This document shows positions 18,020-33,908 of a stretch of 64,000 nucleotides of DNA, in pieces. The stretch is taken from contig JAGAMO010000001.1 in the NCBI GenBank assembly GCA_017624675.1, forward strand, positions 1 through 64,000, written 5' to 3'. The notes under the pieces are model-generated. The model saw only the letters and a program-made list of their open reading frames with translations. It had not been told where the DNA came from and did not search any database. Source of the stretch: Clostridia bacterium. GTDB taxonomy: Bacteria; Bacillota; Clostridia; Oscillospirales; Acutalibacteraceae. The first letter of the stretch is position 1. Each line of letters starts with the position of its first letter. The translations under genes were made by a program, and so were the position numbers.

Positions 18020-18451
18020 ATGGCAGTTAATCAAATTTCGGTTTTTCTTGAAAACCGCAACGGTCAGTTGGCAGAAATCACAGGTCTTTTGGCAGAAAAT
18101 AAAATCAATTTAAGAGCGATTTCCATCGCTGAAACCGCTGATTACGGTGTATTGCGTATTATTGCTGACGATTCTGAAAAAGCAAAAAATGCCTTACTTC
18201 AAAATGGCAATATCATCAAGGTTAACCCCGTAACTGTTGTTGCAGTGCCAGATAAACCCGCAGGTCTTTCAGAACTTTTAAATATGCTTGCAAAAAGTGA
18301 TGTTTCTATTGAGTATATGTATTCTCTCTTTACTCATCAAAACGATAAAGCATATATGGTTTTCCGTGTTACCGATTACGATAATTTCATAAAGCTTTTA
18401 AGCAAACATGGTTTAACACCTATACACTCAGCTGAGTTGGGACTTAAATAA
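18020..18451 (+). CDS. tandem ACT-domain protein
   Basis: A 143-residue protein made of two ACT modules (about 1-70 and 71-143). The first begins VNQISVFLENRNGQLAEITGLLAENKINLRAIS and the second VVAVPDKPAGLSELLNMLAKSDVSIEYMYS. ACT modules bind amino acids and usually regulate an enzyme or transcription. Stand-alone double-ACT proteins often sit beside paaK/ior genes. It starts 11 bp after paaK, and its stop shares one base with the luxS start. It probably senses the amino acid related to the operon's substrate; which one is unknown. Confidence 0.88.
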   Translation: MAVNQISVFLENRNGQLAEITGLLAENKINLRAISIAETADYGVLRIIADDSEKAKNALLQNGNIIKVNPVTVVAVPDKPAGLSELLNMLAKSDVSIEYMYSLFTHQNDKAYMVFRVTDYDNFIKLLSKHGLTPIHSAELGLK

Positions 18452-18936
18452 TGGAAAAAATAGCAAGTTTTACTATCGACCATTTAAAGCTCAGTTCAGG
18501 CATATATGTTTCGAGGGTAGACGAGCGTGACGGAGTAAAGATTACAACCTTCGACCTCAGAATTACAATGCCTAACCGAGAGCCTGTAATCGATACACCG
18601 GCGCTTCACACAATAGAACATTTGGGTGCGACCTTTTTGCGAAATTCCAATAAAAAAGATGATATAGTCTATTTTGGACCGATGGGTTGCAGAACAGGTT
18701 GCTATCTTTTGGTGTTTGGCGAAAAATCGAGCGAGGATATATATCCTTTGATTTTGGAATTGTGTGATTTTATAATGGAATTTGAGGGTGAAATCCCAGG
18801 GGCTAAACCCGAGGAATGTGGGAATTTCAGTGAACAAAATCTTATGATGGCTAAATATTATATGGCTGAATACAAAAAAAGACTGATTGAAAATAAGTCT
18901 TTTGAATATAATGACTGTAGTTTGTCGAAACGCTGA
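18451..18936 (+). CDS. luxS: S-ribosylhomocysteine lyase LuxS
   Basis: Cleaves S-ribosylhomocysteine to homocysteine and DPD, the precursor of autoinducer-2, as part of the activated methyl cycle. The 161-residue protein has the metal site HTIEH (53-57) plus C123 in ECGNFSEQN, and the catalytic cysteine C84 in GCRTGC. All key residues are present. Its ATG overlaps the ACT gene stop by one base. The last codons (SKR-stop) lie inside the first hairpin of the palindrome array, so the C-terminus may have been reshaped by that element. No pfs or other methyl-cycle gene is adjacent. Confidence 0.95.
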   Translation: MEKIASFTIDHLKLSSGIYVSRVDERDGVKITTFDLRITMPNREPVIDTPALHTIEHLGATFLRNSNKKDDIVYFGPMGCRTGCYLLVFGEKSSEDIYPLILELCDFIMEFEGEIPGAKPEECGNFSEQNLMMAKYYMAEYKKRLIENKSFEYNDCSLSKR

Positions 18937-19090
18937 AAAGCGCTTCGACAAGCCACTTTTCAAGTGGCTTTGGCAAAATTAAATTTTAAATTTAATTTTG
19001 CACAACACTCATTGCAATGGATATGGACAAATTTCAAGAGAAATTTGTTACAAAATCAAAGATTTTGTGTCGAAACAAGAATGTTTCGAC
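18923..19090. repeat. array of seven palindromic units with terminal inverted repeats
   Basis: Consecutive units: (1) TGTCGAA-A-CGC loop GCG-C-TTCGACA, 18923-18950; (2) AGCCACTT-TTC-AAGTGGCT, 18951-18969; (3) GCAAAATTAAATT-TTA-AATTTAATTTTGC, 18973-19001; (4) the short palindrome CATTGCAATG, about 19010-19019; (5) ACAAATTTC-AAGA-GAAATTTGT, 19027-19048; (6) ACAAAATC-AAA-GATTTTGT, 19050-19068; (7) GTCGAAAC-AAGAAT-GTTTCGAC, 19069-19090. The left arm of unit 1 and the right arm of unit 7 are also complementary (GTCGAAAC/GTTTCGAC), so the block has 8-bp terminal inverted repeats. No T-run follows any hairpin. Confidence 0.85.
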
Positions 19091-19129
19091 TAATCATAAA
19101 CATTATAACAAAATTTAAGGAGAATTTGT

Positions 19130-31179: not shown

Positions 31180-33093
31180 ATTGAGTTTAACATCTATCCA
31201 AAGGTTTTCGTAATAACTTCTAACTTCTGGGTCAAGGTCGTGATAATATTGAGTGTTCTCTTTAACTTCGTCACTGGGGTAGAGAATGGGGTCGTTTTTG
31301 TAGGTGTAGTTGTCACTATTTATAACGCCTGTATGTGGCGAAGCATAGCAGATATATTCTGCGTTTGCAAGGGCTACCTCGGTTTCCAAAAGGAAGTTGA
31401 TATATAGCATAGCTGCATCGTAATTTTGAGCGGTTTTAGGAATGCAAACCGAGTCAACAAATATATTTGTTCCTTCCTTAGGATAAACAAACTTCAAATT
31501 CTTGTTTGATTGCTTCATAATGTGGTAATCGCCCGCATAATAGGGGGTGAGTGCCGCATTTGCAGATTCCATCTTATTGAAAACTTCATCCATAACACGC
31601 GCTTGTAAAACAGAATTTTGTTGTTTAAGCTTTTCTGCCGCTCTGTTCCAGTCATTTTTATTAAGACTGTTAACATCAATTCCTAAAGCAAACTGAGCAA
31701 TAGCGAAGGCATCACGGGAGTTGTTAAAGGTCAAAATTTCGCCTTTATAACGGTTGTCAAATAAAGCTTCCCAACTGTCGGGCGCTTCTTCAACCATTTT
31801 TTCGTTATAAATTAAACCTACCATACCAACATTGTAGGGCACAGTATATTTGTTTTCAGGGTCGAAATAGAGGTTTTTATATTCGTCAGCAATATAGTGG
31901 TAATTCGTAAGCTTTGAATAATCGAGAGGCAAGAGCAGTTCTTCTCTTATCATACGTTGAATCATATAATCAGAGGGGATTATGATGTCATAAGCAGAAG
32001 AACCCGCCTTGATTTTAGCATACATCTCTTCGTTGCTCTCAAAGTTAGTATAGTTGATTTTAATGCCCGTTAACTTTTCAAAAGTGGAGTTGACATCAAT
32101 TGTGGCGTCGCTTCCATCGGCGATATATTCGCCCCAGTTATAAACATTAAGCGTGGTACCCGCCAAATCACGGTTAAAAACAGCCTCGGTTTTTAAGGTG
32201 GTGTTTTTAAGGTTGCGGCTGATAATCGAAACCGCAGTCATACTGCCCGCAATAGCAACACAAACTAAAATGGACAAAGCTTTCATAAGCTTTGGCTTGA
32301 ACTTAGATTTTTTGTTTTCGCTTTGAGAAAGGTTTACTAAAACAAGTAATACCAAAACGGTTAGAAAAATGATTGTAGACAGAGCATACATTGTGGGTTT
32401 AACCGTCTTTTTGGTCATTGAATAAATGCGGATGGGCAATGTCTGGAAAGAGGGACCTGATGTAAAGTAACTTATAACAAAATCGTCAAGCGATAATGTA
32501 AAGGACATAATAAAGCCTGTGAAAATACCCGAGTAAATAGAGGGGAAGACAACCTTCATAAACGCCTTTACAGGTGTGCAACCCAAATCCTCGGCGGCTT
32601 CCGATAAATGCACATCGGTCTGCTTGAGTTTTGGTAAAACGTTAAGTATAACATAAGGCAGATTAAAGGTTATATGGGCACAAAGAATAGTTCCAAAACC
32701 CAAAGCCTCTTTTTTGCCGATAATACTTGCCATAAAGACAAACAAAAGCATTAAAGAAACACCGGTAACAATTTCGGGTGTCATCATAGGAATATTTGTA
32801 ACGGTTGTAAGGGCGGTTTTCATAGCGCCTTTTTTCATTTTGAAAATTCCAACTGCCGCAACAGTTCCCAAAACAGTGGCAATTAATGCCGATAGAATAG
32901 CTAAAATAAGAGTGTTTTGCAAAGCGGTTATAGATTCGGCATCATATAACAACTGCTCGTACCATTTAAGAGAAAAACCCTCGAAAACAGAGGTGCTTTT
33001 CGAACTGTTAAAGGAAAAAACAGTCATAACTAAAAGGGGGGCATATAAGAAAAAAAGCATCAATACAATGAAGAATTTACGGAGTATTTTCAT
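31177..33093 (-). CDS. potCD: spermidine/putrescine transporter: PotC permease fused to PotD binding protein
   Basis: A single 638-residue frame carries two proteins. Residues 1-257 are a PotC-type permease with six membrane helices and the EAA loop EAAEDLGCTPVKAFMKVVFP (165-184). A basic linker and an extra hydrophobic helix (about 270-291) follow. Residues 310-638 are a PotD-type polyamine-binding protein, starting TTLNVYNWGEYIADGSD. The helix would tether the binding domain outside the membrane next to its channel. There is no separate potD and no lipobox. It is the last gene of potA-potB-potCD, overlapping potB by 4 bp. Confidence 0.92.
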   Translation of the reverse strand: MKILRKFFIVLMLFFLYAPLLVMTVFSFNSSKSTSVFEGFSLKWYEQLLYDAESITALQNTLILAILSALIATVLGTVAAVGIFKMKKGAMKTALTTVTNIPMMTPEIVTGVSLMLLFVFMASIIGKKEALGFGTILCAHITFNLPYVILNVLPKLKQTDVHLSEAAEDLGCTPVKAFMKVVFPSIYSGIFTGFIMSFTLSLDDFVISYFTSGPSFQTLPIRIYSMTKKTVKPTMYALSTIIFLTVLVLLVLVNLSQSENKKSKFKPKLMKALSILVCVAIAGSMTAVSIISRNLKNTTLKTEAVFNRDLAGTTLNVYNWGEYIADGSDATIDVNSTFEKLTGIKINYTNFESNEEMYAKIKAGSSAYDIIIPSDYMIQRMIREELLLPLDYSKLTNYHYIADEYKNLYFDPENKYTVPYNVGMVGLIYNEKMVEEAPDSWEALFDNRYKGEILTFNNSRDAFAIAQFALGIDVNSLNKNDWNRAAEKLKQQNSVLQARVMDEVFNKMESANAALTPYYAGDYHIMKQSNKNLKFVYPKEGTNIFVDSVCIPKTAQNYDAAMLYINFLLETEVALANAEYICYASPHTGVINSDNYTYKNDPILYPSDEVKENTQYYHDLDPEVRSYYENLWIDVKLN

Positions 33094-33908
33094 ATCATAA
33101 TACCCCCTTTGTCATTGTCACCGAATTTGTTCATAACAGCGATACTTATTATTATGAATATCATAAGTACTAAGGACATTGAAGCACCCAAAGGATAGTT
33201 TGGTATCTTAAATTGGGTTTCAATTATATCACCCGCTAAAAGAATCATACCGTTACCAAGCTTTTGGGAAATATAGAAGGTGCTGATAGAGGGAACAAAA
33301 ACCATTGTAATGCCCGATAAAACACCGGGAAGACTGAGAGGCAAAACAACTCTCTTGATTTTAGAAAAAGAGTTTGAACCTAAGTCGGCAGCAGCCTCAA
33401 GGTATGATTTATCAATTTTGGAAATTGTAGTGTAGATGGGCAAAATCATATATGGTATAAAGTCGTACACCATACCTAAAATTACGGCACCTGGGGTACC
33501 CATAAATTTAACACTGTCAAAACCGAGCATATTTAGTATGCGGTTTAAAACACCGTTGTTGTCTAAAATAACGGTCCAGGAATAGGTCTTAATAAGTAAA
33601 TTCATCCACATAGGAAGCATAACCAAAAGCACCATCATCTTTTGAGAATTCGGCGAAATTTTAGTCAAAAAATATGCAAATGGATAGGAAAGTATTAAAC
33701 AAATAAAGGTTGCAACAAGTGCATAAATAATTGAGGTTATAAAAACGTCTTTATAAAGTCCCAATTCATAAATGTTGTCAAGCGTAAATCCGCCCTTACC
33801 GTCAGAAAAAGTGTAGTAAAGAACGATAAAGAGGGGAACGATTATGAAAATAGAAGACCACACAAGGCAAGGGACATTTAACAAACGCTTACCAAACGTT
33901 GTGTTCAT
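33090..33908 (-). CDS. potB: spermidine/putrescine transporter permease PotB
   Basis: Membrane permease (272 aa) forming the channel with the PotC half. Six hydrophobic segments are visible, and the cytoplasmic EAA loop reads [25 protein letters not shown]. It overlaps potA and potCD by 4 bp each, so the stoichiometry is translationally coupled. Polyamine specificity is inferred from the PotA/PotD-type partners. Confidence 0.93.

Follow-up and report, generated by a model that had tools for sequence, protein, structure and literature searches.

The row of hairpins at the end of luxS in this Clostridia genome is very probably a copy of a non-autonomous, MITE-like mobile DNA element. It has the features by which such elements are recognized: it is short, non-coding, multi-copy and dispersed, with terminal inverted repeats and a target-site duplication. 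The element has an unusual two-unit fold and is undescribed as far as searches of the literature, Rfam, and viral, plasmid and phage sequences show; no title or abstract opening among the papers listed describes it, viral contigs searched with the exact pattern lack it, and BLASTN searches of plasmids and phages with the window copy returned no element. In the window – the whole stretch of 64,000 nucleotides that was analyzed – the repeated unit is ∼200 bp long and occupies 18908-19106. When the 14 copies in the same genome are aligned with 60 bp of flank they agree from ATAATG to CATTAT and diverge immediately beyond, so that these points mark the element edges, and the match of model R1 to the window copy (201.8 bits) spans exactly 18908-19106. 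Other R1 matches within the window are weak, and were read as chance after inspection of the two best. An earlier note on this DNA, made from the sequence alone, had described palindromic units after luxS bounded at 18923..19090; the units are present, but its limits are too narrow, as the hairpin block is the interior of the repeated unit and the ends continue outside.

The whole mobile repeat copy (AT, element and AT; 18908..19106, plus strand) is bordered by two AT dinucleotides, 18908..18909 and 19105..19106, which the other copies indicate to be the target duplication. Between them, all on the plus strand, lie six hairpins and two closing stems, one formed by the left end with the first half of a central linker and the other by the right end with the second half. 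Unit A consists of the left end AATGACTGTAGT (18910..18921), hairpins H1 to H3, and the linker half at 19002..19013 that is complementary to the left end and closes the unit (covariation helix 1, with folding and the swap test described below). H1 (18922..18951; helix 2) has arms at 18922-18933/18940-18951 with one mismatch, H2 (18952..18968; helix 3) has arms at 18952-18958/18962-18968, and H3 (18973..19001; helix 4) has arms at 18973-18985/18989-19001. A dinucleotide at 19014..19015, GC in this copy and replaced by TG or GA in certain distant families, separates the two units. Unit B is closed by the linker half at 19016..19026, complementary to the right end (helix 5 and the swap test), and continues with H5 (19027..19048, arms 19027-19035/19040-19048; helix 6), H6 (19050..19068, arms 19050-19057/19061-19068; helix 7) and H7 (19069..19090, arms 19069-19077/19082-19090; helix 8, with 97.5% of its cells paired), ending with the right end itself (19094..19104), which is identified by the 14-copy alignment and by covariation. 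Together with an H7 arm, the right end repeats the left end imperfectly in inverted orientation; these terminal inverted repeats extend over ∼24 bp, with the consensus ATAATGATTGTAGTTTGTCGAAAC / GTTTCGACTAAYCATAACCATTAT. The 10-nt palindrome CATTGCAATG (19010-19019), which had been counted as a palindromic unit, is correct as sequence and is better read as the junction between the linker halves, one of which is complementary to the left end of the element and the other to the right.

BLAST searches find 14 near-full-length places in the host genome – the window copy and 13 others at 86-95% identity – plus two partial copies, and a 58-bp short version is also present (L191). Among relatives, 20 of 60 genomes match by BLAST, a count that includes the host genome and a genome (G037) with a 28-nt match only, while 17 of 60 match by the end pattern, with 0 control matches; relatives were found in 64 contig stretches. 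Of 295 genomes in the order, 12 are matched by a covariance model, again including the host; they represent nine genera and nine families by their labels, with the best eight or fewer places scored per genome and one of the matches (G198) weak. The earlier note had proposed BLASTN of the host and relatives, together with a covariance model, as a way of telling a mobile element from an RNA tied to luxS, and these return many copies at unrelated sites; its suggestion of a small palindromic mobile element is borne out by the 14 dispersed near-full-length copies, the AT duplication and an intergenic bias. For 32 of the 67 copies that have a genome-mate the nearest neighbor is in the same genome (mean 3.1 and maximum 9 in 200 shuffles), and the copies viewed in one genome, G240, are nearly identical, which on sequence grounds suggests recent movement. 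We note that draft contigs often end within the element, as in the short contigs L142, L145 and L282-L287, and the copy numbers are therefore probably underestimates. Two arrangements in the host genome are also of note: a pair of copies in opposite orientation ∼1.1 kb apart (L014; G000:C38:31683-31882 and 32963-33162), and a copy (L020; G000:C27:9532-9731) lying between two genes within an inverted repeat, CACCCCGAAACCGCAGAT...ATCTGTGAAAGAGGGGTG, that is perhaps a terminator.

The luxS reading frame (18451..18936, plus strand) enters the element, which holds its last eight codons and stop (NDCSLSKR*); as the earlier note had seen, the stop codon, TGA at 18934-18936, falls in the H1 loop. If the flanks are joined over one AT the gene end would read ...FEYNKI*, and in three of the seven relatives whose LuxS C-termini are shown the protein ends FEYK*, FEYK* or FEYI*, the others differing. 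The insertion thus struck the final luxS codons, replacing them with eight element-encoded residues, and the association of luxS with the element is accidental, reflecting one insertion and no conserved unit. Among 61 genomes of the genus, with the best six or fewer candidates per genome, no relative listed combines luxS and the downstream gene at a single locus, and the search revealed no empty allele for the luxS insertion; G077 alone has both genes, on different contigs. A luxS-specific RNA, including the stabilizer or processing unit of the luxS transcript that had been considered previously, was rejected because copies occur at unrelated genes and luxS and the downstream gene are not together in any relative listed.

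The insertion site is recognizable from 102 junction pairs, in which T is found at positions -1/-2 in 70/65% and A at +1/+2 in 81/75% around the AT, a TTATAA-like pattern; the set includes a few pairs from copies of unusual length, and the AT at the junction itself is partly imposed by the search. Comparison of occupied sites with putative empty sites, using queries built with the flanks joined over a single AT, gave five pairs that match across the junction. One (L086/L187) is the only fully clear empty site, with 87% identity over 254 nt and a gap-free junction; two (L122/L106 and L069/L150) have a gap-free junction with diverged flanks, and two (L148/L156 and L165/L181) are ambiguous. A nested insertion in L157 (3809-4009) has the H3 loop of another copy as its target, where one AT is kept and 56 of 58 alignment rows, several of whose loci repeat the same copy, cross without a gap. 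Insertion thus adds the element plus one AT, and AT as the target duplication is supported by the nested insertion and by three of the five empty sites, one of them clear and the other two weaker. The L086 site, ACA-AT-AGCC, argues against TA as the duplicated pair. A palindromic target preference of the IS30 kind, hinted at by the nested site, is unsupported, as 93 sites are not palindromic beyond the core. Insertions lie outside ORFs in 66 of 79 cases, as compared with 19% of random points. The DNA to the right of the L122 insertion, and L106 near 1050-1070, resembles an element end (ATAATGATTATA / ATAATGATTGTA), which in both species is perhaps a remnant of an older copy.

In the mechanism that we propose, a recombinase supplied in trans would recognize the ends and insert the element at an AT. 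A 2-bp AT duplication at a TTATAA core is compatible both with a serine recombinase and with a DDE enzyme whose cuts are staggered by 2 bp; we regard a DDE-type transposase as about an even prospect, a serine recombinase as clearly less probable, and an enzyme of some other type as less probable still. No transposase or autonomous copy with the ends of the element was found by end patterns, at IS30 and recombinase loci, or among the unpaired ends that were followed. IS30 transposases are present in 10 of 60 genomes, the host not among them, and an IS30-type MITE was rejected because the 10 IS30 loci lack the element ends within five mismatches. Model R1 gave 0 matches at 36 recombinase or IS30 loci, which extend no further than ∼1.5 kb past the gene. 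Those unpaired ends (L191-L210 and L281-L296; in G240, five of six left and five of seven exact or near right ends were fetched) belong to copies that are short, reduced to a single unit, truncated or degenerate, to one full copy (L295), or to contig ends, with ORFs listed for L281 and L288 only; left ends lacking a right end in the 64 named stretches are explained by stretch or contig ends, imperfect right ends and truncations. Because draft assemblies break at the element, an autonomous copy could be hidden.

The version of this explanation in which a serine recombinase moves the element by an AT crossover in a TTATAA core, in the manner of a site-specific integrative element, deserves consideration but is rather unlikely. 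TTATAA is a resolvase crossover core, and the AT edges, the TTATAA-like target, and the tandem copies with one common AT described below are all in its favor. Serine resolvases cut to leave 2-nt 3' overhangs, according to a passage of PMC9943657. However, the genes do not track the element: 12 of 14 genomes contain serine recombinases, whether or not they have elements, and no pattern is seen; G046, which is rich in copies, has one serine recombinase fragment only. None of the searched loci carries the element, and the same appearance would be produced by a DDE enzyme cutting with a 2-bp stagger.

The fold of the window copy is far beyond chance, with z scores against shuffles of -11.3 as DNA and -10.8 as RNA and not one of 200 shuffles doing as well in either case. 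Folded freely, as RNA and DNA alike, it forms two closed units. In an alignment of 62 copies less than 92% alike, 88.5% of 4998 cells are paired and 53 of 81 pairs have changed on both sides, values that are reached by none of 500 shuffles; sliding the partners by 1-3 columns reduces pairing to 36-48%. The right end and its linker half covary clearly, with 9.22 of 11 pairs formed as compared with 7.62 (maximum 8.17) when they are swapped between sequences (500 swaps, 60 rows). The left end and its linker half covary slightly (8.72 of 11 pairs; 8.46 when swapped, maximum 8.63; 60 rows), and of all parts of the structure the stem that closes unit A is the weakest, with 82.1% of cells paired. RNAalifold run on alignment A1 predicts 37 pairs, recovering unit B and a few H1 pairs and missing the rest of unit A. 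The comparative alignment shows that the predicted hairpins and end-linker pairings have been kept through compensatory changes, as two inverted three-hairpin units. The earlier note came close in proposing one closed multi-branched structure; both covariation and folding favor two closed units side by side.

A structured RNA – a regulator, stabilizer or processing unit whose fold is selected on one transcribed strand – would account for the strong compensatory change and the RNA folding score, and the window copy does lie in or beside the luxS transcript; we nonetheless consider this reading improbable. Mismatched cells on the plus strand of the element comprise 104 G-U and 139 A-C, and although two column pairs contribute 45 of the A-C cells, and without them the counts are about equal, G-U is not above A-C and there is thus no sign that one RNA strand is conserved. 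Neighboring genes show mixed orientations, being divergent in 21 cases, convergent in 9, and co-directional in the rest, where the element lies 16 times in one orientation and 18 in the other, without clear bias. Taken with the mismatch counts, this speaks against selection acting on a transcribed RNA; of the structured RNA suggested in the earlier note the conserved structure stands, with no indication of selection on a single transcribed strand. There is no tie to luxS, and a known Rfam RNA was rejected because the Rfam covariance models gave no match within the element up to an E value of 1; one sub-threshold match lies elsewhere in the locus.

Returning to the mobile DNA element, its two-unit layout persists in most of the distant genomes viewed, in which ends and linker are altered together; sequences were viewed from 10 of the 11 other model-matched genomes, all but G198. 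An example is presented by G186, in which AATGAATGTAG pairs with CTACATTCATT at 11 of 11 positions and CGATTATCGTT with AACGAAAATCG at 10 of 11. End-linker complementarity in distant copies beats all 300 letter shuffles in 19 of 22 cases, the weaker ones being G201 (2/300), the second copy in G057 (3/300) and G336 (26/300). In G167, unit A is cut down to one hairpin. Shorter copies with the same ends range from 35 to 135 bp, and single units flanked by AT are represented by unit A in L281 and L209 and by unit B in L288 and L246; many of these short versions and single units would fit deletion between the internal direct repeats GTCGAAAC, GTTTCGAC, AATGA and TCATT. Tandem copies with one common AT occur at G077:C12:10287-10602 (L250) and G057:C9:2249-2665 (L244). 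Unit B, when read from its right end, is similar to unit A – each starts with AATG and has a GTCGAAAC hairpin next – and the whole is thus an inverted pair of three-hairpin units, which may plausibly have originated by fusion of two abutting smaller AT-flanked units. Two further size variants were seen: a 238-252 bp version in G240 (L229, L237-L243) whose unit B is extended by a long additional arm, GGATTGGCTC...GAGCCAACC, and a 54-bp version (G000:C31:21009-21064; L022, L210) that is a near-perfect palindrome with ends ATTATG...CATAAT.

Folded or cruciform DNA may be needed for the insertion process, or be shaped by it. A bolder proposal, which we hold tentatively and think unlikely to be correct in full, is that these elements constitute a superfamily with the folded strand as substrate: the two cloverleaf units would splint both ends onto one central linker, bringing the AT-flanked ends side by side two bases apart, for movement by an enzyme that belongs to none of the known IS families and may be a serine recombinase with an AT crossover, and the structure would be conserved across several Clostridia families. 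The reading as a mobile element explains an odd row of hairpins as transposition, and model R1 finds the superfamily by its structure across several families within one order. Covariation between ends and linker is a precise and testable hint at a role of DNA folding in the movement of small elements. In practical terms the copies matter too, as they break draft assemblies and can alter gene ends, as in luxS here. The main interest lies in which enzyme moves the element and why the fold is kept.

REP/REPIN elements moved by a RAYT (Y1) transposase resemble the window element as inverted pairs of palindromic units that are intergenic and present in many copies. The window element, however, is longer, has terminal inverted repeats with an AT duplication, and lacks a constant GTRG tag, the position reading GTAG, GTTG, ATAG or ATCG; Y1_Tnp gave 0 matches in the host genome (96.7% complete), with the control matching in 5 of 14 genomes, and we regard this origin as very improbable. 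Terminators, or local hairpins grown by chance beside luxS, would account for a stable hairpin row between genes but can practically be dismissed, given 14 dispersed copies with common edges (in itself refuting), 0 of 200 shuffles folding as well, and hairpins in which, as the earlier note had remarked, no T-tails are seen.

Among known small elements, NEMIS/Correia, RUP and similar MITEs are alike in size, terminal inverted repeats and hairpins, but they duplicate TA; an IS630-type MITE of this kind was rejected, as the empty and nested sites give AT, not TA, and DDE_3 has 0 matches in the host genome. The bcr1 element is likewise a dispersed repeat with conserved stem-loops and mobile character, but it has a 5-bp target repeat and other ends. 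It is similar in size, 147-167 bp in a table of PMC2267715, but occurs in a different host group, the Bacillus cereus group. Prokaryotic MITEs in general are described in a review (PMC10969869) as short, AT-rich elements that combine terminal inverted repeats and short direct repeats, occupy AT-rich intergenic sites and fold into stem-loops, and the window element has these features in common with them. It differs in having no identified parental IS, in duplicating AT, and in a two-unit multi-hairpin architecture that is kept with compensatory change in several families of an order.
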